From Halichondria panicea (Eukaryota; Porifera; Demospongiae; Suberitida; Halichondriidae), in the NCBI RefSeq assembly GCF_963675165.1, contig NC_087380.1:3649803-3713802 (forward strand): 64,000 nucleotides of DNA. The letters run 5' to 3'. Below, one piece after another: positions 7,101 through 27,514 of the stretch. A program made the position numbers and the translations under genes. The notes beneath the pieces were generated by a model. That model was not told the DNA's origin and searched no databases. It saw only the letters and a list, made by a program, of their open reading frames with translations. The first letter of the stretch is position 1. Every line of letters begins with the position of its first letter.

Positions 7101-10100
7101 AGCCACTGCCATCATTCTCATGAGGCCTGAGTGAGAAAAGATCCAGTCAGAAGTAAGTACATGAGTCAGTTCGTAGTTTACATGCAATTGTAGACTACGA
7201 CCTGACTCACTCGTCCCACGTCTGACATAGTTTTCTTTTAAAACTTTCTCAGGCAGACCGAATCTGAAGTAGTATCAAAAACAAGTCAGGATGGCCGAGT
7301 GGTCTAAGGCGCTACGTTCAGGTCGTAGTCTACAATTGTAGGCGTGGGTTCGAATCCCACTTCTGACATATTTTTGGCTATAAGTTTTTCAGGCAGACAG
7401 AATCAAGTCAGGATGGCTGAGGCGCTACCATTCAGGCCGTATGTTGTTAGGCGTGTGGGTTCGAATCACTCTTCTGATATACTTTTTGTTTTTGGGCTAT
7501 CAACAATTTAAGTTTCTCAGGCAGACCGAATCTAAAGTTAATACTTCCAACAAGTCAGGATGGCCGAGTGGTCTAAGGCGCTACGTTCAGGTCGTAGTCT
7601 ACGATTGTAGGCGTGGGTTCGAATCCCACTTCTGACATACTTTTTGGCTAGGAACGTTTCTCAGGCAGACCGTGTCTAAAGAATTTCTTACATAGCAAGT
7701 TAGAATGGCTGAGGCGTGGCTGAAGCGCTACATTCAGGTCGTATGTTGTTAGGCGTGTGGGTTCGAATCACACTTCTGACATACTTTTTCTTTTTGGACA
7801 AGTTTCTCAGGCAGACCAAATCTAAAGTAGTACAAGTCAGGATGGCCGACAAGTGGTCTAAGGCGTAGCGCTACGTTCAGGTCGTAGTCTACGATTGTAG
7901 GCATGGGTTCGAATCCCACTTCTGACATTTTTGGCTAGGAAAGTTTCTCAGGCTGACCGGCATCTAAAGTATTTCTGCCCGTCAGGATGGCTGAGGCGCT
8001 ACATTCAGGCTGTATGTTGTTAGGCGTGTGGGTTCAAATCACTCTTCTGATATAACTTTTTTATTGGGTTATCAACAAGTTTCTCAGGCAGACAGAATTT
8101 AAGTACCTCCAACAAGTCAGGATGGCCGAGTGGTCTAAGGCGCTACGTTCAGGTCGTAGTCTACGATTGTAGGCGTGGGTTCGAATCCCACTTCTGACAT
8201 AGTTTTTCTTTTTGGGCTATTAAAAGGTTTCTCAGGTAGACCGAATCTAAAGGTAGTTCCTACGCAAGTCAGGGTGGCCGAGGCGCTCTTCATTTAAGCC
8301 TTACAGTCTACGATTGTGGGCGTGTGGGTTCGAATTACACTTCTGATACATGTATACTTTTTCTTCTTGTGCTATCAAACAATTTCTCATGCGGACCGAA
8401 TCTAAAGTGGTACCTCCAACAAGTCAAGATGGCCGAGTGGTCTAAGGCGCTACGTTCAGGTCGTAGTGTATAGGTGTGGGTTCGAATCACACTGCTGACA
8501 TACTTTTCTTTTAATTCTTGGGCTGTTAAAAGTTCGCAGACCAAATCTAAAGTAGTAAACAAGTCAGGATGGCCGAGTGGTCTAGGCGCTACGTTCAGGT
8601 CGTAGTCTACGAGTGTAGGTGTGGGTTCGAATCCCGCATACCTTTACTTGATTCCATGGACTCGAAGAACATTGGCACTAAGCACATCAGGTGGATCACT
8701 TCAGAGGCAAGTAGACAGTGGCACTGCAAGTAGCTGCAAAGGAAAGAAAGCACTCTACAATAATTAAGTCATCAATTGCAATATACACTTACAATGCTTC
8801 TTTCTCTTTTCTTGGGCTCTTTGTTGTAAAACTACACAGCAGGGATATATCAATGAGTGCATGAGCTTTGGAAAACGTTATGTATGTGACCTTATCTCCA
8901 GTGAGCCCATCTTATTCTGTACACTTTCCATGATAACACAGAGACTCTTGTACAACTCCAGATAAAGGTTCCCTTCACGCTGTATAAGAAAGAATCGATG
9001 CCATCTCAACACACATTCTAAGCTATTAGCAGGAGAAATAGCCCAGGGATTAAATGCAAAAGCAAATTAGAAAAAAATTGGCAACTCTGAAAGATGTACA
9101 TGTATGCGTTGCTTTGCAAAGCAGCATCCCACGTGCACGCTGAGTGCTCACCTTCTTCTCTTCTCTGTCAACAGCTGCAGCACTGAGGAGTAGTGAGGCA
9201 TAGTCCAGGGTCATGTGAGCTGGCAGCCCAAATAAGTCCACACACCTCACTTTCCTGTGGTATGACAGAACACATTCAATTTCATATATGTAATCACATA
9301 ATTGTATTATGTGTTAAACGTACAGACATCTATAATTATAGCTAAACATGAGTCCTTGAATGGAACTATATAATTATGTTAGCGTAAGTACCAGTAGATA
9401 GTTCATCGTAGCTAAATGTACTTAGCATTCTAACAGAGACAAAATGGCTAATCAATAATTTTGAGTATGACATCGTTTTTGACATGACTACTATGGACGA
9501 TCCCAATCATTCAAAAAGTGTGAAAAACACTGTATACCCAGTGTAGGTCTGACATGCACACGAATCACTACAAGTTCAGTGCATTTGGCCTGGACGTTAT
9601 CACGTGACCGTAATGATATCAATGCACTAAACTTGTAGTGATTCACGCACGTATGTCGCCTCCTCTGACTCTTACCCAATAAAGTTTAATTTGGCTGTCT
9701 CCAGTGTGGCTCTCATGAGGTTGAGGGGAAGATCATATTCAAGCCCTGCCATTAACAACAGTAGGAGCATGTTGCACTGCTCCGTTTCTTTTTCTCTCTC
9801 CTCTATTAGTGCCTCCAGGTCCGGGAGGAGGGGGGTGTGGTGTGTGTACCGCTGCTGCAGCTGCAACTCTTGGTGGATGGAGTAGGCCAAGTATGATAGT
9901 CGTTTCTTGTCCATTTCTGCATACAATGAGAAACAGTGTAAATTAACGATGGTATATACGCACTGTGATTGCACTTACCAACATTGTGTGTGTAATTGAC
10001 TGGGAAACAGGCCATAAGGTGAGTTGTCTGTAAAAACAAGGCATAATGCGTGAATGATTAAACATAATATTGTCATGCAGCCTCAAGGACAAGGTTTTTA

Positions 10101-12163
10101 TATGTATGTGTATACATGTAGTTCTACACTGCTGTGATTGATATAATAATAAAATGAAAGCACTGCGGGTGCTGATGCCTCGATGGAGGTGTCAAAGCTA
10201 TATATAATTTATCATAAAGCTACTAGCTAATTGCTAATTATACATACATTATATCATGATGAAAATGTTTGCATTTGCAAGCAGAATCCAGAATCACAGG
10301 GAAACTCAAAAAGTGGGAAATGATCGACCATAATTGTTGTTAAAAAGAATCGCTCTCTTCTCACTTTTGCAGCTACCAATAGCTAGCATTCTAATGCAGA
10401 GCTATAACTACTAGAAACGCTCCATGGACAAGTTTTTCTACGCACTCTTCTGAAAAGGATGCATTGGCATTCCAAGTAAGCAAAACTATAGCCATAAACT
10501 CGATAGAACCAAGCATTATTTTGATAGTCATGTTTTCATGACTAGAAACTCTTACTTGCACTTTATGGATTTGAACAGCTGTAGCAGTCTACACAGACAG
10601 ACACACAAACACACTACCGTATATACCTCGCTTGCGAATGCGCACCATGGCATATAATTATATGCTCTGCATGAATACTACAACAGAAATAATTCGGCTT
10701 CTATATATACCCCACTATACATCTTCCTAACTATACTACATAGCGTTAGACCTTATCTCCGAACACTCCAGTGACAAGTAGATTCTTCATGGAAGAGGGC
10801 ACGAACACAGACTCAGTAGCTTTGTGTCTCTACACATTGACAACAGTTTAATTATAGTTATAGGCATTTGGTAATTGATTCCCACAAAACATGTATATAT
10901 GAATTTTAATAAAAGTGCAGGCATGATTATGACATTGCAACCTTCACCTCTGTGGCAAACATCTTTATAGAGATCAAAGGGCTCAAGGCTCGTACATTTT
11001 AAACTAAAGACCTCATTCAAAAAACAAGAGGAATTAGGTAATGTACTCACAACAGGCTGTGCTGAAGATTGAGACTGAACGAAGAACTGGGATAAATTTT
11101 TCTTTTCTTCAGCTAGACAACAAAACAGTGACATACGTAATAACAGTGCATATTCTTCAGTGTATCTACGGTTATACCTGAGACTATTCTCCCATCCAGC
11201 ATCCAAACATGAGGCAACGTGTCCACTACATGCTTACGATCTGTACAGTAAGTTATATTAATCCACCATTAATTTTCGCAAAATAATACAACTACATCTA
11301 TAATTGTATTGCTGACATGTATAGCACCATAGAGGCAAATATTGTCAAGGAGATATACTGTTGCTACGAATCCAACCCTAGACCACTAGAGAAAAGTGGA
11401 TGCATGGACATACAGTGAGGGTCCGAGTCCAATCGTTCGTTGCCTAGCAGTGTGAGTGAGATGATGGTCATGTGAGAGAGGTGCTTCAGCTCCTTCCAGT
11501 CCAGGTGATTGTAGCCAATTTTGAGGATACCCAAAACAGGAAACCTTGACAACCCACTGAGGCTTTTCACCTGTAAATACATTATGAAAACTGGTTGAGC
11601 ATCTGAAAATCGCAGCCTATGTGGGGATGGTTTGCTGTACTGTTTGTTGTGTTTCAGGGCTCATTACTTGTACGTAGGCGTACAGCTGTTAGATTTCCAA
11701 CTAAAATGTAGCCACATGTACCTGGATCTTTACAACCAAAGTCACCTTGTTTCCTGCGAGGTTGATGCTCCAGAGCTGTCGACAGTGGTAGAGGTTCCGT
11801 ACGGAGTCTATCAGGTTGTTGCATAGCACCAGTGTTTGCAGTCTCCTGCATACCTCCAGCCTTTCTATAGCAACTGTAAGGGAGTACTGTGTGATAGTAG
11901 ATACTATACACCCATTGATTGATTCACTAATGATTAGAGCCTATAATAATTATAGGAAACAATATGAAATTACCTAGAGCTTACCGATTTCATTCTCCGA
12001 AAGATCAACGTACTCCACCTCATTCAGGGGAAAGTTTGTATACTTTTTTAGAAGCTATGGTTAAATAGCAAAGTTAATCAGAGAGACACCTGGTTTAGCT
12101 GCTAGCTTAGTCTCTCTTAGATTTCTAAGACTACTGTATATATACCTGTTTTGTGATCCTCAT
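4111..12163 (-). CDS. Leucine-rich-repeat protein, about 918 aa, 22 exons
   Basis: Exons, 5' to 3': 12146-12163, 11985-12054, 11746-11873, 11414-11570, 11178-11240, 11051-11112, 10752-10829, 9979-10027, 9676-9916, 9152-9254, 8891-8979, 8793-8831, 8648-8733, 7038-7126, 6767-6895, 6458-6613, 6340-6406, 5906-6210, 5091-5623, 4902-4939, 4404-4592, 4111-4178. All phases fit and the total is 2,757 nt ending in TGA. The N-terminus holds leucine-rich repeats (VEYVDLSENEI, LQTLVLCNNLIDSV, LWSINLAGNK, FPVLGILKIGYNHLDWKEL) and an LRR cap (HVVDTLPHVWMLDGR). A helical region follows (MDKKRLSYLAYSIHQELQ, DVWDVYHDVASYLLE), then a Ser/Pro-rich, probably disordered C-terminal third. I do not recognise the orthologue. 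The six-codon first exon is the weakest part. The intron 7127-8647 carries a tRNA-Leu array. Confidence 0.8.
7184..7206 (-). repeat. Inverted tRNA-Leu fragment at the array edge
   Basis: These bases are the reverse complement of the anticodon-arm and variable-arm part of the adjacent tRNA-Leu unit (CAATTGTAGACTACGACCTGA), followed by a partial T-arm-like piece. This marks a rearranged left boundary of the tandem array. Confidence 0.65.
7285..7368 (+). tRNA. trnL-CAG: tRNA-Leu (anticodon CAG), intact unit 1
   Basis: A class II tRNA of 84 nt including the discriminator A. Acceptor GTCAGGA pairs with TTCTGAC. The D arm is GCC...GGC with the A box, the anticodon stem is CTACG/CGTAG around the loop TTCAGGT (anticodon CAG), there is a long variable arm with a TCTACAATTGTAGG hairpin, and the T arm is GTGGG-TTCGAAT-CCCAC. 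There is no intron and no encoded CCA. It lies on the plus strand inside an intron of the minus-strand LRR gene. Confidence 0.93.
7407..7477 (+). pseudogene. Degenerate tRNA-Leu-like unit (type B)
   Basis: It keeps the GTCAGGATGGC start and a near B box (GTGTGGGTTCGAATCAC) but lacks most of the D loop (GGCTGAGGCGC) and has a weak anticodon stem (CTACCATTCAGGCCGTATG). It is unlikely to fold as a functional tRNA. Confidence 0.75.
7554..7637 (+). tRNA. trnL-CAG: tRNA-Leu (CAG), intact unit 2
   Basis: Same 84-nt structure as the first unit, differing in the variable-arm hairpin (TCTACGATTGTAGG). All stems pair and both internal promoter boxes are intact. Confidence 0.93.
7699..7781 (+). pseudogene. 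Degenerate tRNA-Leu-like unit (type B)
   Basis: It starts GTTAGAATGGCTGAGGCGTGG, with an altered D arm and mismatched anticodon stem (CTACA / CGTAT), but a good T arm and a TTCTGAC 3' end. The A box is damaged. Confidence 0.7.
7836..7927 (+). tRNA. tRNA-Leu (CAG) variant with D-arm insertions
   Basis: The acceptor, anticodon (CAG), variable and T arms match the intact units, apart from one change in the T stem (GCATGGG). Two short insertions (ACA after GCCG and TAG after GGCG) break the D arm, so it may be a pseudogene. Confidence 0.6.
7981..8051 (+). pseudogene. Degenerate tRNA-Leu-like unit (type B)
   Basis: GTCAGGATGGCTGAGGCGC start with the D loop deleted. The B box is changed to GGTTCAAATC and the 3' acceptor strand is CTTCTGATA. 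Confidence 0.7.
8116..8199 (+). tRNA. trnL-CAG: tRNA-Leu (CAG), intact unit 3
   Basis: Identical in all stems to the unit at 7554; 84 nt with complete acceptor, D, anticodon, variable and T arms. Confidence 0.93.
8268..8349 (+). pseudogene. Degenerate tRNA-Leu-like unit (type B)
   Basis: GTCAGGGTGGCCGAGGCGC start. The anticodon region is changed (TTCATTTAAGCC), so no CAG loop remains. A recognisable GGGTTCGAAT B box is kept. Confidence 0.65.
8423..8500 (+). tRNA. tRNA-Leu (CAG) variant with shortened variable arm
   Basis: The D and anticodon arms are intact (loop TTCAGGT), but the variable arm is reduced and the acceptor (GTCAAGA / TGCTGAC) has two mismatches. Probably decaying. Confidence 0.55.
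8563..8640 (+). pseudogene. tRNA-Leu (CAG) unit lacking its 3' acceptor strand
   Basis: It matches the intact units up to the T arm (GTGGGTTCGAATCCCGC) but then ends, within a few bases of the splice donor of the LRR-gene exon at 8648. It has no TTCTGAC strand and so cannot form an acceptor stem. Confidence 0.75.
10140..10680 (+). repeat. Dispersed repeat, copy 1 (in an LRR-gene intron)
   Basis: Contains the chain GCACTGCGGGTGCTGATGCC, GAAACTCAAAAAGTGGGAAA, TGATCGACCATAATTGTTG, CTCTTCTCAC and CAGACAGACACACAAACACAC. The same chain recurs at about 38,697-39,245 (inverted), 47,575-47,845 (inverted, partial) and 62,160-62,625. It is non-coding, of unknown transposon class, and ends with an ACCTCGCTTGCGAATGCGCA-type motif. 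Confidence 0.7.
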
Positions 12164-12409
12164 GATTTAAATGATAACCACAGTAGGTTTAATTTGTGTC
12201 TTGCCTAGGTGGAAGCATATAGTTGAGTCGTAGACTGGTGCTAAGACAATGTAAACATAGTTCTATAGTACTAGATCTAGCTTCTACACACAGTACAAAT
12301 TATACTGAGGGGGAGTACACTCTATGCTAAACAAAAGGGGGCGTATCTCAATTCTGTAGTCTACATTCCATTTGCTGTAAATAGATTAATGAGGCATTTT
12401 CCAAAGATG
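12164..12409. other. Upstream flank of the LRR gene
   Basis: No gene recognised here. This is the probable promoter side of the minus-strand LRR gene, but no specific element can be supported. Confidence 0.3.
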
Positions 12410-13685
12410 TATGGGGTGCCGTTTGTGTCAAAATGCTGATTTTATCCACTTATGCAGAAGTACACTGACTTATACACAAGTGCACAGACTTATACCACAA
12501 GTACACTGACTTATGCAGAAGTACACTGACTTATGCAGAAGTACACTGACTTATACACAAGTACACTGACTTATACACAAGTGCACAGACTCATACACAA
12601 GTACACTGACTTATACATAAGTATGCTGACTTATACACAAGTGCACTGACTTATACATATAACCTGACTTGTATACAAGTACTTTCACTTATGCACAAGT
12701 ATGCTGACTTATACACAAGTATGCTGACTTATATACAAGTACACTGACTTATGCACAAGTGCACTGACTTATACACAAGTGCACAGAATTATTTTAACTT
12801 TTAACCTTTAACCCTTGCACTTACAGAAGCTCTGTAAACATTACTAAGAACAGGCTAGGCACATGCATGTACAGGCAGAGTCAAGGGGCAGACAATAGTA
12901 ATGTTTACAGAGCTTCTGTTAAGAGTTGTAGCAGCTTGAAAATTGCATTAGTAAACAGGTTTAAAGCGTTTGACAATACTTGCACATTTACTTGAAGATT
13001 CTGTCATGTCTCTAGTCTATAGAACAACCATGTGCAAAGGGTTAAAGGTTAAAGGTTAAATTAATTTAGCACGTGCACTTGTGTATAAGTCAGTGTACTT
13101 GTGCATAAGTCGGTGCACTTGTGCATAAGTCAGTGCACTTGTGCATAAGTCAGCATACTTGTGCATAAGTCAGTGCACTTGTGCATAAGTCAGCATACTT
13201 GTGCATAAGTCAAAGTACTTGTACAAGTCAGGTTATATGTATAAGTCAGTGCACCTGTGTATAAGTCTGTGCACTTGTGTATAAGTCGGTGCACTTGTGT
13301 ATAAGTCTGTGCACTTGCGTATAAGTCTGTGCACTTGCGTATAAGTCGGTGCACTTGCGTATAAGTCGGTGCACTTGTGTATAAGTCAGTGTACTTCTGT
13401 GTAAGTCAGCATACTTGTGTATAAGTCAGTGTACTTGTGTATAAGTCTGTGCACTTGTGTATAAGTCAGTGCACTTCTGCATAAGTCGGTGCACTAGTGT
13501 ATAAGTCAGTGTACTTGTGTATAAGTCAGTGTACTTGTGTATAAGTCTGTGCACTTGTGTATAAGTCAGTGCACTTCTGCATAAGTCAGTGTACTTGTGG
13601 TATAAGTCGGTGCACTTGTGTATAAGTCAGTGTACTTCTGCATAAGTGGATAAAATTAGCATTTTGACACAAACGGCACCCCATA
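12410..13685. mobile_element. Palindromic minisatellite element with terminal inverted repeats
   Basis: The ends are near-perfect inverted copies of about 54 bp (TGGGGTGCCGTTTGTGTCAA at the left, its complement at the right). Inside, about 12,440-12,790 is a tandem array of a 20-bp unit (ACTTATACACAAGTGCACTG) and about 13,065-13,650 is the same unit in the opposite orientation, with more copies (roughly 17 against 29). The centre holds a further palindrome (ACAGAAGCTCTGTAAACATT / AATGTTTACAGAGCTTCTGT) and AACCTTTAACCCTTGCA-type motifs. GATG flanks both ends and may be a target duplication. No protein is encoded. Confidence 0.85.
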
Positions 13686-13828
13686 GATGGGTGCCCACAG
13701 AAGTTAGAACAAATTTGTAAAAAACTCATAGTGGGAAAATAAGCACTGAATCTCTATTAACTACAACAACAATAAAAAGTTTCTATACAGATGTCGTGGG
13801 ACCACAGATTATTGATCTATGGTGGGGC

Positions 13829-16535
13829 TTAGTGTGGTTTTGAGTCTGGGGAGTATGCTTTTGTGGATCGCTTGCGAGGTTTCGGCAGTGGTGGTGGTGA
13901 GGATTGGGGAGAGGGGAGACGAGCTCGCGGTGATCGAGAGGGAAATTGGTCACTCTGTAGGTTGGGGGGTGGTTGTTGGAGGCTTTGTACTGGAGGAAAC
14001 TGACGAGATGGATGCTCGCTTGATATGGAACTAAAGTGTGTACGGCATGGCTGCTGTCTCGATGTGAGAGGAGAAACTTCCTCATATGGTAATGGAGGAA
14101 GCTGACGAGATGCCTTTTCATAAGGTGGTGAAGGGGGAGAGGATGGGAGTGATGGTAGTACTGGAACACTAGTAATATCATCATCATCATCATCATCTGT
14201 GGGAAAGTTCCTTAATGGAGAGTCAGGCTTTATCCAAATGCCATAGTAACCGGTTTTGAAGTTCCCACTATAAAAATAAATGATATGTGAGTTCACACAA
14301 AGCTACAGGCTATAGCTATGTACAGCAGGACAAGGTAGGTTACTACATTACCTGGTGCCTAGTTTTCTTGTTGTCAGCCCAATGAATACGGAACGAATGA
14401 GCTTTCCAAAGACCGCTGCATTGACAGGATTGATACTAAATGTAGCACAGTGCCTCAGGTAATGATTATAAAGTGTTTTCTTGGAAACATTGCAGCCTTC
14501 AGAAGCTTCAAAATTTTCACAAAGCCATTGGATCTATGAACACAAAGATCAGATAAAGAGAGGATCAGTTATTAGCAACAACAAAACAACAGACTTAGTT
14601 ATGTTTTGTGTGAGGCTTCTGAACGTTTGATATACCTATTTTATACAAACTTAAGTCAAATTGACATTGACAGCAGTACGTAAGAACAACTTACAGTCTG
14701 TGAATGGATTTTGTAAGCATATCGCATTCCCATCTGTCCTTGTTGAGCATCTGCGGACACAAGCTTACCGGACCTGTATTGCAACAACATACTAATTCAT
14801 TTGGTATAATTATGACGATCACTATGCCAGACATGAGAGTGTGACTAGGAGCGATCATGCTCCAGCTTGGAGTGATCATTATTTTGCTTAATTAGTGTGT
14901 GCTTTGCCTTACTTGACTAAAGATGAGTACGGTCCAGAATCATTTCCCGAGAATGTAGCGCAGAGTGACGTATACTGATTGGCATCCTTTACAGACACTA
15001 TAAAAATCACATACAGTCATATTTTTATGCTTGTCAAAAATTAATTTACCTGAACCAGGATCTGCAGATGAAGAAGTTTGGAGTCGTCCTTGAATCCAAT
15101 TCTGTCGGATTTCTTCTCCAGTGCCGTACCCACTCTCCCCTGTCACATCAGTAGCTTCTTCTTCATTTGTAGGGAGATCAACTTCTGTATAAAGTATACA
15201 TAGTTGAAAAAATAATACAAGCGTTGTGCAGATCCTATAAGTCCTACACCTGGTACGTGGTATAGTCGAGCAACAATAGAAATTACCTGCTAATATACGT
15301 TTAGTAGAACCTTTCCTTCCAGATCTTATAGTAACGATACCATCTAGGTCAGAAAACTTCGCTAATGACCTGGACTCATCTTCCTCTTCATCAATGGCGC
15401 CTAATCCGAATCGGCTCAATTCTATTAACTGAGCATCAGAAATCGGCAGAACGTTTGTAGCTATTGAAACTGGAATAGAAAATGTTAGGAATACACATCC
15501 CTTTTGAATAGATTCTAATGACAAAGCCCAAGAATTTATGTGCAAGGTCTTAGCTATACGGTTACAGAGTATAGTTATCTGCTGCAACATAATGGGACCT
15601 TCTTCAAAGTATTTCAGAGCAAACTTTGAGTGTTTACTGTCCTCGTTTTGACCAGGATGAAACACAGCGTGTGGCACTTCGAACACATTGTGTTTACAAT
15701 ATGAATTGAACTCATCCAAGTACTTTTGCATTTCGCGTTTGTCTTCTGATGACCCATATTCATTCACGACTAACTCTATAGTTTGATGATTGAAGAAAGA
15801 AGCCCTTTCCAGTAGAAGAATCATAAGCACTTGAGTCATTGTCTTCGAACTCATCAGCTGCATCTTTTCTTCTTTTGAAAAGATTGCAGAGGCTGATAAG
15901 AAAAGCTTAACACTATCTATTTCATCTTTGAAAGCTGGGGACTTCGACAGTGACAAGCAGAGCTTACGAAATGCACTCACAATTGATTTGTAATCAGTAG
16001 TTAACTTGTCGAGTAACATGTGTTTCTCTGGCTCACTTAAACGTTTAGTATCGAGATAAGGAAAAGTTGGTGAGCTAATACTAGGAGTTGTTTTCTCTGC
16101 TTTTTCTTGCGGACATCCAGACATGAAGAAATCTTCTAGAGTACACTTCTGACAGTATGGGCACACAAATCCTGGACCTTCACTTTCTTCAGAACTTACG
16201 AGTTGCTTCCCTTTGTAACATTCCTCGACTTTTCTGGTACAGTCATGCATCCATTCACCTTGACTCCTCAAAACAGCAATAAAATCTTCAAACAGTGCCG
16301 GTCGAGACTTTACCCTACATTCTACAGCACTGATAATTTTTCGAGCCCTAATAGAAGGTTCTGAGCCGGGGCCAACCTGTTTCAAACTTTCATATTCACT
16401 CTCTGATAAAAACCATTTACTATGGAATTCATTCCCCATATTGTCGATATTTCCTTTAATTGAGTCGATGAGTAGTACAGAACACTCTACAATCGTCTCC
16501 CATTCTGGCGATGCTTTTTCACGAGACGTATCCAT
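13829..16535 (-). CDS. CARD-like / RFX-domain fusion protein, copy 1 (722 aa)
   Basis: Exons 15287-16535, 15050-15184, 14913-14997, 14695-14773, 14352-14533 and 13829-14267 join in phase to 723 codons (ATG 16535, TAA 13829). Aa ~5-100 resemble a CARD (LLIDSIKG, FLSESEYESLK, IRARKIISAVE, LFEDFIAVLRSQGEW). CPYCQKCTLEDFFMSGC (~aa 125-141) is a possible zinc knuckle. Aa ~150-400 is a conserved helical region of unknown fold. Aa ~517-598 is an RFX winged helix: IQWLCENFEASEGCNVSKKT, LYNHYLRHC, NPVNAAVFGKLIRSVF, LTTRKLGT, then SGNFKTGYYGIWIKPDSPL. In the wing the usual GNSKYHYYG reads GNFKTGYYG. The tail is acidic, then proline-rich. RFX proteins bind X-box DNA; joining to a death-fold module is unusual. 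The RFX call is firm and the CARD call is by motif only. Confidence 0.85.
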
Positions 16536-17411: not shown

Positions 17412-20047
17412 TTAAATTTTTTGTTGCATTCTCAGCTTGCTAGGTTTTGGAAGTGTTGGAGGCGGACGACGAGAGGGCTTACGAGCTTTTGGTAGTCTAA
17501 GAGGAAATTGTTCATTTTGTAGATTGGGAGATGGGAAGGACAACTGCTGAAGGAACGATTGTGGGAGACGCTTCAGTACTTGAGGGAGCTTACTAAATGT
17601 AGATGGCAGCTCACTTTGTAGAGAATGGTCCGAGGGATGATATGACTGCTGTACTGGTAGAAGAGGCGGTTGCATTTGATGATCAGATTCCTCACTTGGT
17701 AGTGGAGGTAACTGGTAAGCCAATTCCTCACTTAAAGGCTGACAAGACAGTTTTTCATTTGGTAGCGGAAGAGGGGAGGATAGCAATGGTGATAGCACTT
17801 GAACTTCAGGCATCTCAGTCTCATCTGTGGGAACGTTGCGTAAGGGAGAGTCAGGCTTTATCCGGATGCCATAGTAACAAGTTTTGAAGTTCCCACTACA
17901 CATAAAATTATAAAGATAAAGGAGAGGTATTTCACTATAGAAGGTATTACTTCTATATACTTTACCTGGTGCCTAGTCTTTTTGTTGTCATCCTAGTAAA
18001 CAATGAGTGAATGAGTTTTCCGAACACTGCTATAGTGACAGGCTCCATACTTAACGCAGTACAGTGTCTCCGGTAATGATCATAAAGTGTAGTCTTGGAA
18101 ACATAGCAGCTTTCAGAAGATTCCAAATTTTCATGAAGCCAGTGGAACTTTTATGGGAAAATTAACCAGATGAAAAGTAGGTGTTGGAAAAAATACTATA
18201 GCTATATTAAAGTAGATTTAGGAATATAACGTCAAGAACCATGCAAGACATACTGAACTCAAACATGACAAAAATACAATGTACCGTCTGCGTCCTGAAA
18301 GCGTATCGCATTCCCATCTGCTGTTGGAAAGCATCTGAGGACACAAGCTGGTTTGACCTGTATAGCATGTAACGATAGGAGGAGGATCACTCTGCCCGAC
18401 ATGCAACATGAGACTGCATGCTCTTAGGGATACACGTATATAGTTCTCCAGAGACTGAGTGCATGCATGTGTTTGGCCTTACTTGACTATATATAAAGAT
18501 TCGTATGGTCCAGAATCCTTTTCTGAGAGTGTAAGAAGTGGCGTATACAGATGCCAGTCCTTGATAGACACTGCATAATTATTTCAGACGACTAATAAAG
18601 TCCTCCATTGCCACAAATATTTACCTAAGTCTGAATCTGTAGACAAAGTGCTTTGATGTCCTTCACCAATCCACTCCTGTAGGACTGCCTCTCCAGTGCC
18701 GTATCCACTCTCCCATGTCACATCAGTAGCCTCCTCTTCATTATCAACTTCTGACAATATAGAAATTATAAATGTTGCATGCGTTTTGAACATTAGAAAT
18801 ACCTGCTTTATATAGTTCATGTTTGGTAGAATTTTCCCTGTCGAGCTTTAAAATAGTATCGTCAGTAGTATTCGAAAACTCTTCTAACGCTCTATCATCA
18901 ATGGCACCTAATCCATATCGGCTCAATTCTGTCAACTGACCTTCAGAAATTGGTAGAACATTAGTGGCTATCGCAATAGGGATGGCAAATGTTACGACTA
19001 TGCACCCCTTTTCAATGGATACCAATGACAAAGCCCAAGAATTTATGTGCAAGGTCTTTGCTATACGGCTGCAGATTTTAGTTATCTTCTGTAACTTAAT
19101 GGGATCTTCTTCAGAATCAGAGTATTTCAGGGCAAAGTATTTCGAGTGTTCTCTGTCCTCGGTATGACCAGGATGAAACACAGAGTGAGGTACTTCGAAC
19201 ACATCGTGTTCACAATAAGACTTAAACTCCTGCAAGTATTTTTGCATTTTGTGTTTGTCATCTGATGACCCAAATTCATTCACGACCAACTTTATAGTTT
19301 GATGATTAAAGAAAGAAACCCTTAGTTGAAGAATCATGAGCACTTCAGTCATTGTCTTTGAACTCAGTAGTTTCATCTTTTCTTCTTTTGAGAAGATTGC
19401 AGAGGCTGATAAGAAAAGCTTAATATTTTCTATCTCATCTTTCAAAGCTGGGGACTTGGACAGTGCCATGCAGAGCTTACAAAATGCACTCACAATCGAT
19501 TCATAATCAGTAGTTAACTTGTCAAATAACATGCGTTTCTCTGGCTCACTTAAACGTTTAGTATCGAGATAAGGAAAAGTTGGTGAGCTAATACTAGGAG
19601 TTGTTTTCTCTGCTTTTTCTTGCAGACATCCAGACATGAATAAATCTTCTAGAGTACACTTTTGACAGTACGGGCACACAAATCCTGGACCTTCATTTTT
19701 TCAGAACTTACGAGTTTCTTCGCTTTGTAACATTCCTAGACTTGTTTGGTACAGTCACGCATCCATTCACCTTGACTCCTCAGAACAGCAACAAAATCTT
19801 CAAACAATGCCGGTCGAGACTTTACCCTACATTCTACAGCACTGATAACTTTTCGAGCCCTAATAAAAGGTTCTGAGCCGGGACCAATCTGTTTTAAACT
19901 TTCGTATTCACTCTCTGATAAAAACCATTTGCTACGGAGTTCATTCCCAATACTGTCGACACTTCCTTTAATCGAGTCGATGAGTAGTGAAGAACACTCG
20001 ACAATCGTCTCCCACTCGGGTGAAGCTTTTTCACGAGACATATCCAT
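17412..20047 (-). pseudogene. CARD-like / RFX-domain paralog, copy 2, with two lesions in exon 1
   Basis: It has the same six-exon plan as copy 1: 18803-20047, 18625-18750, 18483-18570, 18285-18357, 17966-18147, 17412-17895. The start ATG (20047) and the CARD-like part are intact, but a TAG stands at 19736-19738 where copy 1 has GAG, and a 1-bp deletion near 19,693-19,701 shifts the frame just before CPYCQKC. After that the frame is open to the exon end, and exons 2-6 are clean. The RFX region (FHWLHENLESSES, LYDHYRRHC, VFGKLIHSLF, SGNFKTCYYGIRIKPDSPL) is more diverged in the DNA-contact helix than copy 1. Either a recent pseudogene, an assembly or allelic error, or a gene using an internal start that drops the CARD. 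Confidence 0.7.
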
Positions 20048-21974: not shown

Positions 21975-24900
21975 CTAAGAGAGCAAGGCTGCGTGTACAG
22001 GGTATTTTAAGGTGGTAGTGAGTCTATGGTTATGCTCTTCTAAAGAGTTCTCTTTGTAGAAAAAGACCAACTCCTCCAGGGAGTTTGAAGTACACGGGAG
22101 AGAGAAACCATATTTATTATTAAGAGTGAACACCTTCAAGTGGATAAGGCCATTATACCTGTGGGGTGTGCATGTGTGTCAAAGATTAGCACAGTCTTTA
22201 ATAAACACAACAAGACGTTGTAGTATACAGAAGCCTGTAATTATAGAGGTCGAATGAAAACTATATGCCCAAGAGCAGGATATATATACAGCTGTATACC
22301 GTATAGCGTGTAATTTTCGGGGGACAAAATATTCGTAGTTGAGCAGTATTTAGTCATTTGTGCATATTATTTTCGTGGTTGCTGCTTGCACTGCAGGTAA
22401 AAGTAGGCAAGGTCGCTTCATTCGTGGGTAAAATATTCGTGGTCAGACCTTCAACCACGAAAACCACGAATATTTTGCCCCACGAAAATTACCCTCTATA
22501 CGGTAGTAAACATAGACCTTTCCTGTGGTTGGAAAATAGAGGAAGTTTGAGGAAAATAGAACACAGTCAAGGGCTTAAAATCGAATAATTGTAGCTGCCA
22601 CATGCAGTTGCAATGCGAGTACGCTCGATCAGTGGAGTATAGGACTAAAATATTGGGGAGCCTATAATTATGTGGCCCCCCTGTTCCTACTCCACTGCAG
22701 CTATAAGTGTTTTAAGCTTCTATAGCCATGCTCTATAGCTCTTGAATTTGATTAGCAAATCATTAATTATAGGCTATAATTATATACATATTGCTTACGG
22801 TTACCAGTACTTAAACTTGAAGGTCAACGTTGCTATTCTACTTATATAGGAGTTTTAGCTCTACACCAGAGCGCTATAGCAACTGCTAGAATGATAAAAG
22901 AGCTGCAAAGCTGCACTAAGCAGCAGTTGCAATGCACAGTTTTCCGATCGTACTATAATAGCTCACATAATTTATGGCGGATATTATTTGCCAACGATAT
23001 CCTCAGAAATGCTTGTCACAAATGGTGCAATCTGATAGGTTACTGAGAGGTCCCTTATGAAAATTTATGTTTCAAGTCATAGCAATGATGATGCAGTGCA
23101 TTAAGTATTTTTGTGTTCTGCAGTGCAGCTTTGCAGCTTTTGTCTTACTCATGCAGCTACCAATAGCTCCTAGTGTAGAGCTAACTACTAAGACTCAGTG
23201 GCGTAGGCAGAGGGGGGCTGACGGGGCTAGAGCCCCCCTTTTGTGCGTAGTTACTAGAATGATGTCATTCAATGGAAATGTGGGCAAGGCCATCTACTGC
23301 ACTAGCCTCGATTCCAGGCTGAGTTATTTCTAGCTAGACCGACAACTTCGTTTTATTAAAAAAAAAATCAGCCTGGGATCGAGGCTATACTACTGCGCAT
23401 GCTTACTGCTGATGAAAAAGTGATTACCTTTTTTTTAGGTAAAATTGCAAGCTATTCAGCGCCTGCTCTGGCCCTGCTCAACGGATTTGAGCCCTGCCCT
23501 TCCCAAAATCCCGGCTACACCACTGTAAGTAGAATAGCAACTTTCTATTAGCAGTTTTTGCTATGCATGATTCTCAAGAGACAGAAACCGGCGGCCTTCA
23601 GTGTGAGTTTTTTTTTATATAGACTAGCCAGAGTGAAGCTTAAACATTGCTTGCAGAGTCTTCTTTGTGTTAATATATAGCCTAGCTTGCTTAGCACTAT
23701 TCTAAATCAGGCCTCGTCCAACGGTCACTGTGGGATTATGAGACCTCAGGCCCTTAGTAGCGCCCTCGCTGTGCTTGGGCCCTCGGGGTCTCATAATCCC
23801 ATAGAGACCTTGGACTCGGGAGTGCATTAACTAATTACAATACTTTTTGTTCACAGTAAGACATGCATGCACGTCTATAGAGATTTACCCATGAGTCTCA
23901 AGTATACACTCACATTATATAGAGGAAGTACGCGTGCATACTGAGCACTATAATTATACATGGGGACAATATATGTGCGTACGTACTAAGTTTGTGCATT
24001 ATAGGGAAAAAGCACTCACACAATGTCAATGCTGTGAGTATGTAGTAGCTGCTCTCCCTTCGGCAATAACCATTGGTTAACAGTGGGCCGACAAAGGAAG
24101 GTACCATTCTCTTTATTCCTCAATAGCTCACTAGCCATGTGCCTATAAAGGGGGAGGAAAAAAACTGTAATACTAAATCGGTACAGAGTGTGGAGCAAAA
24201 GCATACTAATTTTCTATAGCTGCATGCATCTTGACCATTATTTTAGCTAACATAATTATTAGACAAGTATACAATACAGGTTATAGGCTCACCTGTCTAC
24301 CTCACAATACCATGTCTCCCTTCTTAAGTGAGTGTTAGATGCCCCCTACAAAGAAAAATTATCACATCTCTGAGAACAAGATGCTGATAGAACATTCATC
24401 CTGTATGTGCACTGGCATTATACAGAATTAATTTTATACACATTTAGCTTATCTATATAAACTCACTGAGAACAAAAGACTTATTTACATGCATCTATTA
24501 ATTGTTGTTATCTATTGCATTATGTAGCTTATTACCAGGACCTCAAGAAAGAAGAAAATTGATTCTTCCAGGATCTGCAACCATTGAGCAGTTACAGCTG
24601 CAACAGACACACACGTACACACACACAGTCAGCTTTACCGTATCGTTCGTGCGGCTACGCCTCGAAACATAATTAGAGCACTGAAGTGCTAACCCTCGGC
24701 TATTGACATGAAAATTGCTAGGATTGGCCGGGAAAAACGACTCGTAAACGAAAAAAGTACATGTGAATGATGCTTTTGGTGGTTCCTCTGGCCAATCCTA
24801 GCAATTTTTCACATTTCAAATGTTTTTCTAGTCGGATATCTAGATGATTGGGGAGAGTTGGTACCATTGGTTAATTATCACTCTCAATTCTCAATATCTG

Positions 24901-27514
24901 CATGGTTGTCATTTTCTTACAAACGCCAACACTAGTACTCACCCCCGCACCTTTTGTATACCCTCTCAAAGTACACACACACACACACACAAACGGGCCG
25001 ACATGCAGAGCAATCATTATACCCCTGCAGCGTATATCTGCATTTGCACACTCGGGATAACTATTTACATGCGATCTTGAAGTGACAGCTATATATGAAG
25101 TTACTTACTGATACTGAGTAGAGTATTTGATGTGTTGGTGTTGTAGGTAGTGGGGGAAATGGTTTATCCTCTCTATCCGGTCGAGGAGGCCGTCTGGGAA
25201 GGATGCCCCTATGATTACAGGGGGGTAGTTTTAGGGTAAGCAAACTCAGCTGTATGTCTGGCAGTGGTGGGAGTGCCCTTTGACTATAGGAGTGAGTGGG
25301 AAACTGGAAATACTGGGGCGAACAATTTTTTTTGGGAGTGGTGGTGCAGTATTGGGAACTGATATGAGGGAAACAAGATCAATAGTAACGGTTCACTTGG
25401 GGCAGTAGTGTTTGATTGTATCACAAACTCTATTTATACATATAGCTATAAGCTCTTTAATCCCATTCTAATCTAACCCACCGAGTCAGAATTGAGTTGG
25501 TTGTGACAAAGCGTTAAATAGAAGGTATTTACATGGCTGCATGTGCATGCATGGGTCACCGGGGTGTTCCTATAATTATATAGAGTATATGTGTGTAGCT
25601 TCAGCCGACTGTTTCACTTGTAGTCGTCTTTACTCTATGTGCATGTTGACAGAACTAATCTGAGCTGACCAGGATTCAATCAGGATTAAAACCTCGTGTA
25701 AACACGGCTATAGAGAGAATGGTTAAACCTATTAACTTATGGACTAAAGTAATATAATTATACGTAAAATAAGTAGAATTGTCTCTGCAGCTTCAAGAAT
25801 ATGGCACCCAAACATACCACGCCTGAGAAATATAATGCAGTACAAATGAACATTGGCAGGCAGCGTTGCTGGCCACGGTGCTCTCAGAATGCTTATGTCA
25901 TGCTCTTTAAACTTCGTATGTATGGCCTTACTTGACAGATGTGTACGGTCCAGAATCAATTTCTGAAAATGTAGCAAGCAGTGGCGTATACTGATTGGCA
26001 TCCTTTACAGACACTGTATTTCAGACAAATAAAATAATGTATAGTCCTAAATTGCCAAAAAACAATTTACCAAAGTCTGAATCTGCAGACACTGACATGC
26101 TTTGGAGTCCTCCTTGGATCCATTGTTGTCGAACTGCTTCTCCGGTGCCATACCCACTCTCCCCTGTCGTGTCAGTAGCATTCTCTATAGTAGTAGAAAT
26201 GCCAACTCATATATAATTATAGAAGGTACAGATAACAGTATAAGTTAGCCATTGGTATACACGTACCTATCAATTCTTAGATTATAGAACTTCACTTACT
26301 CAATACATACCTGATTCATATTCTTCTGTTGTAGCAACTTTTCCATGTGAGTCTTCTAATGCACCAATGTCTTTATCACCACCTAATCCGTATCTGCTCA
26401 ATTTCATCAACTGAGCTTCAGAAATTGGCAAAACCTCAGTAGCTATCGCAATAGGAATGGCAAATGTTAGGAATACACACCCCTTTTCAATGGATACTAA
26501 TGACAACGCCCAAGAATTTATGTGCAAGGTCTTCGCTATACGATTACAGATTTTATTTATCTTCTGTAACATAATGGGACCTTCTTCAGAGTATTTTAGG
26601 GCAAATGTTGAGTGTTTAATATCCTCGTTTTGACCAGGATGAAAGACAGCGTGTGGCACTTCGAACACATTGTGTTTACAATACGAATTGAACTCATCCA
26701 AGTACTTTTGCAATTCACATTTGTCATCTGATGACCCATATTCATTCACGACTAACTCAATAGTTTGATGATTGAAGAAAGAAGCCCTTTCCAGCAGAAG
26801 AATCATGAGCACTTCAAACATTTCCTTTGAACTCGATAGTTGCATTTTTTCTTCTTTTGAAAAGATTGCTGAGGCTGATAGGAAAAGCTTAATATTATCT
26901 ATCTCATCTTTTAAAGTTTGGGACTTGGACAGTGTCATGCAGAGCTTACGAAATGCACTCACAATTGATTCATAATCAGTAGTTAGATTATCAAGCAACA
27001 TGTGTTTCTCTGGCTCACTTAAACGTTTAGTATCGAGATAAGGAAAAGTTGGTGAGCTGATAGGAGGTATTTTCTTTTCTTTTATTTTCGGACATCCAGA
27101 CATGAAGAAGCCCTCTAAAGTACACTTTTGGCAGTACGGACACACAAATCCTGGACCTTGACTTTCTTTAGACCTTTTAAATTGCTTCGCTTCGTAGCAT
27201 TGCTCGACCTTTTCGGTACAGTCACGCATCCATTCACTTTGACTCCTCAAAACAGCAACAAAATCTTTAAACAATGCTGGTCGAAACTTTACTCTATCTT
27301 CCACGGCGCTGATAATTTTTCGAGCTCTAATAGAAGGTTCTGAGCCGGGACCAATCTGTTTCAAACTTTCATATTCACTCTCTGATAAAAACCATTTGCT
27401 ATGGAATTCATTCCCAATGTTGTCGATATTTCTTTTAATTGAGTCGATGAGTAGTGTAGAACACTCGACAATTGTCTCCCATTCGAGCGAAGCTTTTTCA
27501 TGAGACACATCCAT
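21975..27514 (-). CDS. CARD-like / proline-rich / SH2 protein, paralog copy 3 (~680 aa)
   Basis: Exons 26311-27514, 26071-26184 and 25932-26013 are paralogous to exons 1-3 of copy 1 (CARD-like start, CPYCQKCTLEGFFMSGCP knuckle, helical region). No RFX exon follows. The next open exon in the right phase is 25109-25358 (proline-rich: RALPPLPDIQL, LPRRPPRPDREDKPFPPLP). It is followed by an optional 33-nt exon 24542-24574, then 24293-24345, 24020-24142 and 21975-22158, which encode one SH2 domain: TWYCEVDRHMASELLRNKEN, GTFLCR with the phosphotyrosine-binding Arg, then KYGFSLPCTSNSLEELVFFY and LKYPVHAALLS before TAG. The SH2 most resembles those of PI3K p85. Phases close to 2,043 nt. The alternative is two genes: a truncated copy 3 and a separate SH2 gene whose start I cannot find. 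Confidence 0.62.
22297..22506. mobile_element. MITE of the CGTATAGCGGG family, copy 3
   Basis: Inverted ends ACCGTATAGCGTGTAATTTT and AAAATTACCCTCTATACGGT, with internal TATTCGTGGT / ACCACGAATA pairs. It lies in the last intron of the SH2-containing gene. Confidence 0.75.
23196..23525. mobile_element. Short element with CAGTGGCGTAG-type ends
   Basis: Left end CAGTGGCGTAGGCAG, right end CCGGCTACACCACTG. CAGTGGCGTAGC-type termini are common on hAT-like non-autonomous elements. It contains an inner inverted pair (GCCTCGATTCCAGGCTGA / TCAGCCTGGGATCGAGGC, 23,306-23,388). Confidence 0.6.
24710..24815. repeat. Short inverted repeat
   Basis: AAAATTGCTAGGATTGGCC and its complement GGCCAATCCTAGCAATTTT flank about 65 bp. 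A related motif (TTTCCTGGCAATCCTAGCAA) occurs near 30,047, suggesting a dispersed family. Confidence 0.55.

Follow-up and report, generated by a model that had tools for sequence, protein, structure and literature searches.

A predicted gene of the sponge Halichondria panicea that joins a CARD and a TRADD-N-like domain to an RFX DNA-binding domain

Gene A and its tandem copies

The stretch of DNA that was analysed, here called the window, comprises 64,000 nucleotides of contig NC_087380.1 of the sponge Halichondria panicea. On the minus strand between positions 13829 and 16535 lies a gene model, gene A, that starts with an ATG at 16535, closes with a stop codon ending at 13829 and contains 722 open codons (722 aa) in six predicted exons (Table 1). 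All five introns have GT-AG borders, and their phases (1, 1, 2, 0 and 2) are mutually consistent. Short linkers are encoded by exons 2 and 3; exons 4-6 supply the RFX part with a Pro-rich tail. An earlier, sequence-only reading of this DNA had proposed one phase-consistent model leading from a CARD-like N-terminus through a Cys knuckle into an RFX domain. As a gene model this was borne out by the GT-AG borders, the phases and the open codons; the two junctions it had named, 15287/15184 and 14352/14267, were correct, with three more introns between them. The splicing of exon 1 to the RFX exons is predicted, on the basis of the splice sites and of five predicted boundaries and phases that A has in common with the neighbouring copy B. 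Intron 1 of gene A (15185-15286) was 102 bases long, compared to 52 bases in copy B and 126 in copy C. It contained no in-frame stop, thus its retention would add 34 residues.

Two tandem copies of gene A were found in the window. In copy B the exon order and phases were kept for exons 2-6; its exon 1 is interrupted by an in-frame TAG (19736-19738) and, nearby, by a frame change. Copy C (27514-21975) could be read as a phase-consistent protein of 669 aa, in which the SH2 exons are reached in frame from exon 3. This SH2 domain was of the PI3K p85 type: 29 of the 36 PDB sequences matched at E <=0.01 were PI3K regulatory subunits and seven were VAV, and the best match was PI3K p85-alpha with an E-value of 1.2e-19. 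By Pfam the same domain reached 19.8 bits, below the cut-off of 21. The RFX part of A gave no match in copy C at E <=10. As exon 3 is followed by RFX in A and B and by SH2 in C, one exon 3 leads to different outputs. We also considered A and C as sisters, their proteins being the closest, and rejected this grouping: the DNA distance in exon 1 was 0.129 for A-B, 0.143 for A-C and 0.157 for B-C, and dS was smallest for the pair A-B in both halves.

Other features were seen in the window on the downstream side of gene A. An inverted repeat lies just behind the gene at 12407-13688 and consists of two opposed arrays of 20-base units, 12448-12792 and 13073-13647; its best arms, 780 nt apart, were 251 nt long with 92% complementarity. 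Frames that by eye resemble leucine-rich repeats occur on the minus strand at 11364-12068. Four tRNA-Leu (CAG) genes are located on one strand at 7285-8500, their starts 269, 562 and 307 bases apart, within a tandem repeat with a period of about 150 bases.

Table 1. Predicted exons, domains and tandem copies of gene A in the window
Feature	Position	Strand	Description
Gene A exon 1	15287..16535	-	Open from the ATG up to a predicted GT donor following 15287; encodes CARD, Cys knuckle, helical and TRADD-N-like domains
Gene A exon 2	15050..15184	-	Linker; present in copies B and C too
Gene A exon 3	14913..14997	-	Linker; present in copies B and C too
Gene A exon 4	14695..14773	-	Probably derived from the exon preceding the DNA-binding exon of L001 (RFX1/2/3-type)
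Gene A exon 5	14352..14533	-	First part of RFX DNA-binding domain
Gene A exon 6	13829..14267	-	RFX domain end, acidic run, Pro-rich tail, basic cluster near C-terminus (cluster read by eye)
CARD	16200..16514	-	About aa 8-112; hhalign profile comparison and six helices in a low-confidence model
Cys knuckle CPYCQKC...GCP	16110..16163	-	aa 125-142; CPxCxxC common in aligned members
Helical domain with SF.N motif	15666..16064	-	aa 158-290; motif invariant
TRADD-N-like domain	15378..15650	-	aa 296-386; conserved GC at strand turn, weak Pfam TRADD-like_N
Tandem copy B	17412..20047	-	Same six-exon order with RFX; exon 1 broken
Tandem copy C exons 1-3	25932..27514	-	27514-26311, 26184-26071, 26013-25932; constant region and linker as in A
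Copy C variable end	21975..25358	-	Pro-rich exon 25358-25109; SH2 exons 24345-24293, 24142-24020, 22158-21975

The constant N-terminal region and its family

The unit encoded by exon 1 of A gave 113 match rows genome-wide (E <=0.001), with scores computed for 108 of 191 candidates and two rows contributed by some genes. This constant region, composed of the CARD, the Cys knuckle, the helical domain and the TRADD-N-like domain, preceded C-terminal domains that differed between loci: RFX in A and B, a p85-type SH2 domain in C and UvrD at the locus L004. At L004 (822-4355) the CARD/knuckle/helical/TRADD-N-like unit and a UvrD-type helicase, which scored 25.3 bits (cut-off 23), stand in one uninterrupted frame of 1177 aa. 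The next frame on the same strand resembles, by eye, a continuation of L004. Kelch, ankyrin or Death frames were found behind six further loci (six of eight frames matched), as neighbouring frames whose splicing to the unit is putative. Judged by its codon changes the constant region is under purifying selection, with a dN/dS of 0.27 over 398 codons in exon 1 between A and C.

The CARD identity of the N-terminus was not apparent from single-sequence searches. Protein A alone gave no Pfam CARD match, a Pfam scan of the exon 1 protein returned matches at chance level only, and Pfam CARD (PF00619) matched weakly (E 0.0093) in one of 15 family members. When the profile of the N-terminal family was compared with PDB sequences, the matches were weak and mixed (a SIN3-type protein at E 0.009, the ICEBERG CARD at E 1.1), and loci of this genome assigned to CARD or Death were therefore used for the comparison instead. 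The N-terminal family from this genome comprised 97 rows at E <=1, 32 of them at E <=0.001 by our count. As reference sets served 20 Pfam-CARD and 20 Pfam-Death loci out of 56 and 150 rows, respectively, mostly high-scoring and with some rows skipped; all 40 frames were confirmed as domain frames against the domain positions. Alignment A1 contained 15 of the 20 N-terminal sequences and alignment A5 12 of 23.

In the search with the family HMM, 12 CARD loci ranked before the first Death locus; they were the first 12 non-family matches, four of them at E <0.01. With hhalign, 35 family members scored 96.3% against the 20 CARD loci and 0.9% against the 20 Death loci. The CARD score was 95.9% without the four members that were also found by Pfam CARD (L045, L051, L055 and L056, four of the 20 distant members), 94.4% with 15 members and 82.2% with the six nearest. 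Across the full and reduced family sets the Death loci scored 0.5-2.0% and the reversed family 0.0%. When the domain stretches alone were compared, the values were 96.8, 96.6, 96.2 and 91.2% for CARD, 0.4-1.4% for Death and 0.1-0.2% for the reversed family. The family rows and the 56 Pfam CARD rows had 12 places in common, five of them above the Pfam cut-off and two at E <0.01 in the family search.

A fold model of aa 1-121 contained six helices, at low confidence (mean pLDDT 57.9). In a second look with VIA-align, this low-confidence model was compared with 134 chains, and CARD or other death-fold chains took ranks 1-33 with Z-scores of 4.8-7.8, the next fold following at 4.3; some of these chains are designed or unnamed proteins, and Z-scores below 8 may reflect merely a common arrangement. 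Foldseek of the same model gave a best E-value of 1.1 and none below 0.001. We concluded that the N-terminus of gene A is a CARD and not a Death domain. This identity, which had been proposed from the sequence alone, is well supported by the profile comparison (CARD up to 97%, Death at most 2%), and the predicted fold points weakly in the same direction.

The remaining domains of the constant region were compared in an alignment of 23 members (A3), made from 32 sequences after omission of a doubly listed piece of copy B, the second listings of two loci and near-duplicates. The knuckle motif CPxCxxC was counted by us in 20 of the 23 members and was absent from L023, L028 and L032. In the helical domain S246, F247 and N249 were invariant. 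In hhalign this domain matched none of the CARD, Death and N-terminal sets; since it matches neither CARD nor Death, it was left without a fold assignment. A second Death-like domain at this position would be compatible with the plan published for the sponge Amphimedon (PMC8195603).

The TRADD-N-like domain is of the alpha/beta type. Across the 23 members G346 was conserved at 90% or more and C347 was invariant, and a low-confidence model placed the G346-C347 turn between the strands 339-344 and 347-352; the model of the whole exon 1 protein had a mean pLDDT of 41.8. In the TRADD-N family the turn between beta2 and beta3 is described to hold a tiny residue and a Ser, sometimes a Cys (PMC8195603), and the modelled GC turn fits this signature. 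Pfam TRADD-like_N matched weakly in two of the 23 members (best E 0.012), and none of its eight matches in the genome was above the cut-off. The profile of the domain found no TRADD structure in the PDB and one designed protein at E 0.065. By profile the TRADD-N assignment is thus weak.

Kaur et al. (2021, eLife, PMC8195603) described 357 proteins with Death-like and TRADD-N domains in Amphimedon, an expansion of the NCOA6 clade. Most of these have one to three Death-like domains, a TRADD-N domain and a variable C-terminus, for which ankyrin, SH3-LRR, kinase, MATH, SH2, PDZ, caspase and other domains are named (PMC8195603). Gene A, as predicted, fits this large described class of sponge proteins. 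The CARD plus RFX architecture of the sequence-only reading stands as a gene model; its setting was already known from the Death-like/TRADD-N class described in PMC8195603. Scans of viral contigs and of bacterial and archaeal genomes with one to six short peptide patterns confirmed no relatives of the family.

The RFX exons: source, wing and selection

The winged helix that had been proposed for the C-terminus was confirmed. In the exon-joined peptide the RFX domain of A scored 88.5 bits with Pfam PF02257 (cut-off 27), and its nearest solved structure was human RFX1 (1dp7, E 1.4e-25). RFX matches in the genome amounted to six rows, which we read as five genes. One of these, the RFX1/2/3-type gene L001, is located on the same contig as gene A, about 250 kb off; in 10 kb around each of three other RFX genes protein A found no CARD unit. 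Over 74 residues of the RFX domain L001 was identical to A at 50 positions and to human RFX1 at 62.

Exon 5 has an equal length of 182 bases in A and L001, and for exons 4-6 the two genes agree in predicted intron position and phase. Exon 4 of A had 14 identical bases in a row with the exon of L001, and in both the predicted entry phase is 2 and the exit phase 0. The score of this match was reached by plain letter shuffles in 3 of 2000 cases for A and in 1 of 2000 for B. When the exon-4 peptide of L001 was used in tblastn, exon 4 of A was not found; the link between the two exons consequently rests on the DNA match and the phases. From these comparisons we concluded that the RFX exons 4-6 of A derive from an RFX1/2/3-type gene and are joined via a phase-2 intron, exon 4 probably coming from the exon of L001 before the DNA-binding exon.

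The peptide that follows in L001 is presumably the B/C/dimerisation region of RFX proteins; its best match in the window had an E-value of 3.1. In the published layout of cRFXa the B/C and dimerisation domains lie downstream of the DNA-binding domain (PMC10530576). Compared to both L001 and human RFX1, four positions were changed in A and B alike (74-aa numbering): R61S, S64F, Y66T and H67, the last being G in A and C in B. R72W was seen additionally in A. We take positions 61, 64, 66 and 67 to be part of the wing of the DNA-binding domain. RFX1 has been reported to read DNA through its wing (PMC4333399), and DNA-contacting residues are described as largely invariant in RFX domains (PMC10530576). 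The altered wing makes X-box binding by A uncertain. With four wing positions changed and a search of the window that yielded no dimerisation region, A may have lost the ability to bind specific DNA sequences. The usual X-box binding can thus not be assumed for the RFX domain of A.

Between A and B the dN/dS of the RFX domain was 0.58. Since the split of the two copies three of the 74 positions had changed in A alone and 14 in B alone (two-sided sign test, p about 0.013); at 21 further positions both A and B differed from L001. A codon lineage test was not significant, with four nonsynonymous and four synonymous changes in A, 17 and five in B, and 12 unresolved (Fisher p 0.20). Copy B reads as drifting, with a loosely held RFX domain. 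The RFX domain of A is probably, not certainly, held by selection.

Possible modes of action and comparison with known systems

We give about an even chance to the reading in which gene A is intact, is spliced and encodes a protein with the order CARD - Cys knuckle - helical domain - TRADD-N-like - RFX, belongs to a constant/variable family, took its own C-terminus from three exons (4-6) of an RFX1/2/3-type gene, and acts by the CARD-driven route proposed below. The same exons could instead belong to two neighbouring genes, a CARD/TRADD-N gene whose end precedes exon 4, next to a short RFX gene that starts from Met 504 or Met 506. These two codons, both in exon 4, are the only in-frame Met codons of protein A beyond aa 316, and the constant region occurs without RFX in copy C. 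However, the predicted splice sites and phases of exon 3 and exon 4 fit together in both A and B, the entry phase 2 of exon 4 of A matches an internal exon of L001, and in copy C the corresponding exon 3 leads in frame to the SH2 exons, so that we regard two separate genes as quite unlikely. Very unlikely, in our judgement, is a decaying fusion, where the tandem RFX copies would be functionless relics, B being already broken and A the next to follow. The two lesions in exon 1 of B, the ratio of 17 nonsynonymous to five synonymous changes in its RFX domain and the dN/dS of 0.58 between A and B would be expected from such a decay; yet A is open over 722 codons, its RFX domain has accumulated three changes against 14 in B, and exon 1 is constrained.

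For the protein itself we propose a route that would work through CARD assembly. Its boldest form, a possibility rather than a likelihood, would be a one-protein signalling transcription factor in which CARD assembly upon an immune signal replaces RFX dimerisation, an inflammasome-like oligomerisation thereby acting as a transcription switch at RFX-like sites. In the proposed route an upstream death-fold protein would nucleate the CARD assembly of protein A, with the TRADD-N-like domain as the switch at the junction. RFX domains clustered in this way might then bind RFX-like DNA sites, with the CARD assembly substituting for the lost dimerisation domain, and the transcription of target genes would change. 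The basic cluster near the C-terminus, read by eye, may aid nuclear entry. The main rival to this route is DNA sensing, a reverse flow in which the RFX domain would act as the receptor of DNA that is foreign or out of place, with the CARD passing the signal outward. In AIM2-like DNA sensors the DNA-binding end receives and the death-fold end signals. A variable C-terminal domain is part of the family plan (PMC8195603), the RFX changes are common to A and B, no RFX dimerisation part was found in the window, and a lost dimerisation together with a changed wing would suit a less site-specific contact with DNA. On the other hand A retains 43 of the 62 positions that are common to L001 and human RFX1, and we consider DNA sensing unlikely. 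Of the two routes we prefer the first, in which assembled CARDs would bring RFX domains together on DNA.

Among the top-ranked matches in the open-licence literature neither a death-fold domain in an RFX protein nor an RFX/CARD fusion came up, in agreement with the sequence-only reading, which knew of no RFX factor with a death-fold module. The family plan is known, and within the same literature matches RFX was not found reported as an output domain; RFX thus appears to be a new output domain of this family. Like A, the Amphimedon proteins have the N-terminal Death-like and TRADD-N unit followed by a variable C-terminus, and SH2, the domain of copy C, is among those named (PMC8195603). 'RFX', in contrast, has no occurrence in the main text of PMC8195603. 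Sponges have hundreds of proteins of this class (357 in Amphimedon, PMC8195603), and their outputs are largely predictions. As the tandem copies described here carry RFX or SH2 behind the corresponding unit, the output becomes testable with a nearly constant input. With the RFX1/2/3 factors, L001 and human RFX1, gene A has the DNA-binding domain in common, and with L001 also the predicted introns and phases of exons 4-6. It differs from these factors in the B/C/dimerisation region, not found in the window, in the R61S, S64F, Y66T and H67 changes, and in the CARD/TRADD-N unit in front. DEDD2/FLAME3 has a death fold of the DED type and is not known to carry an RFX domain. Like A it combines a death-fold domain with TRADD-N, and it has been called DNA-binding (PMC8195603).

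Should the fusion act as a transcription factor, a single chain would connect death-fold assembly with gene expression directly, and gene A would offer a simple model for the coupling of immune signalling to RFX sites. In vertebrates, the partner of NLRC5 and CIITA at the MHC enhancer is presumably an RFX5-type factor, in contrast to the RFX1/2/3-type domain of A. NLRC5 and CIITA are CARD-named or related immune proteins that act at the X-box elements of MHC enhancers (PMC3837245, PMC4374748), which they reach through a DNA-binding complex (PMC4374748). They are separate NLR proteins acting jointly with others, whereas in A the CARD and the RFX domain are found in one predicted chain together with a TRADD-N-like domain. 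If true, the one-protein factor would correspond, in cis, to the NLRC5/CIITA-RFX link of vertebrates and would have arisen independently in an early animal lineage.
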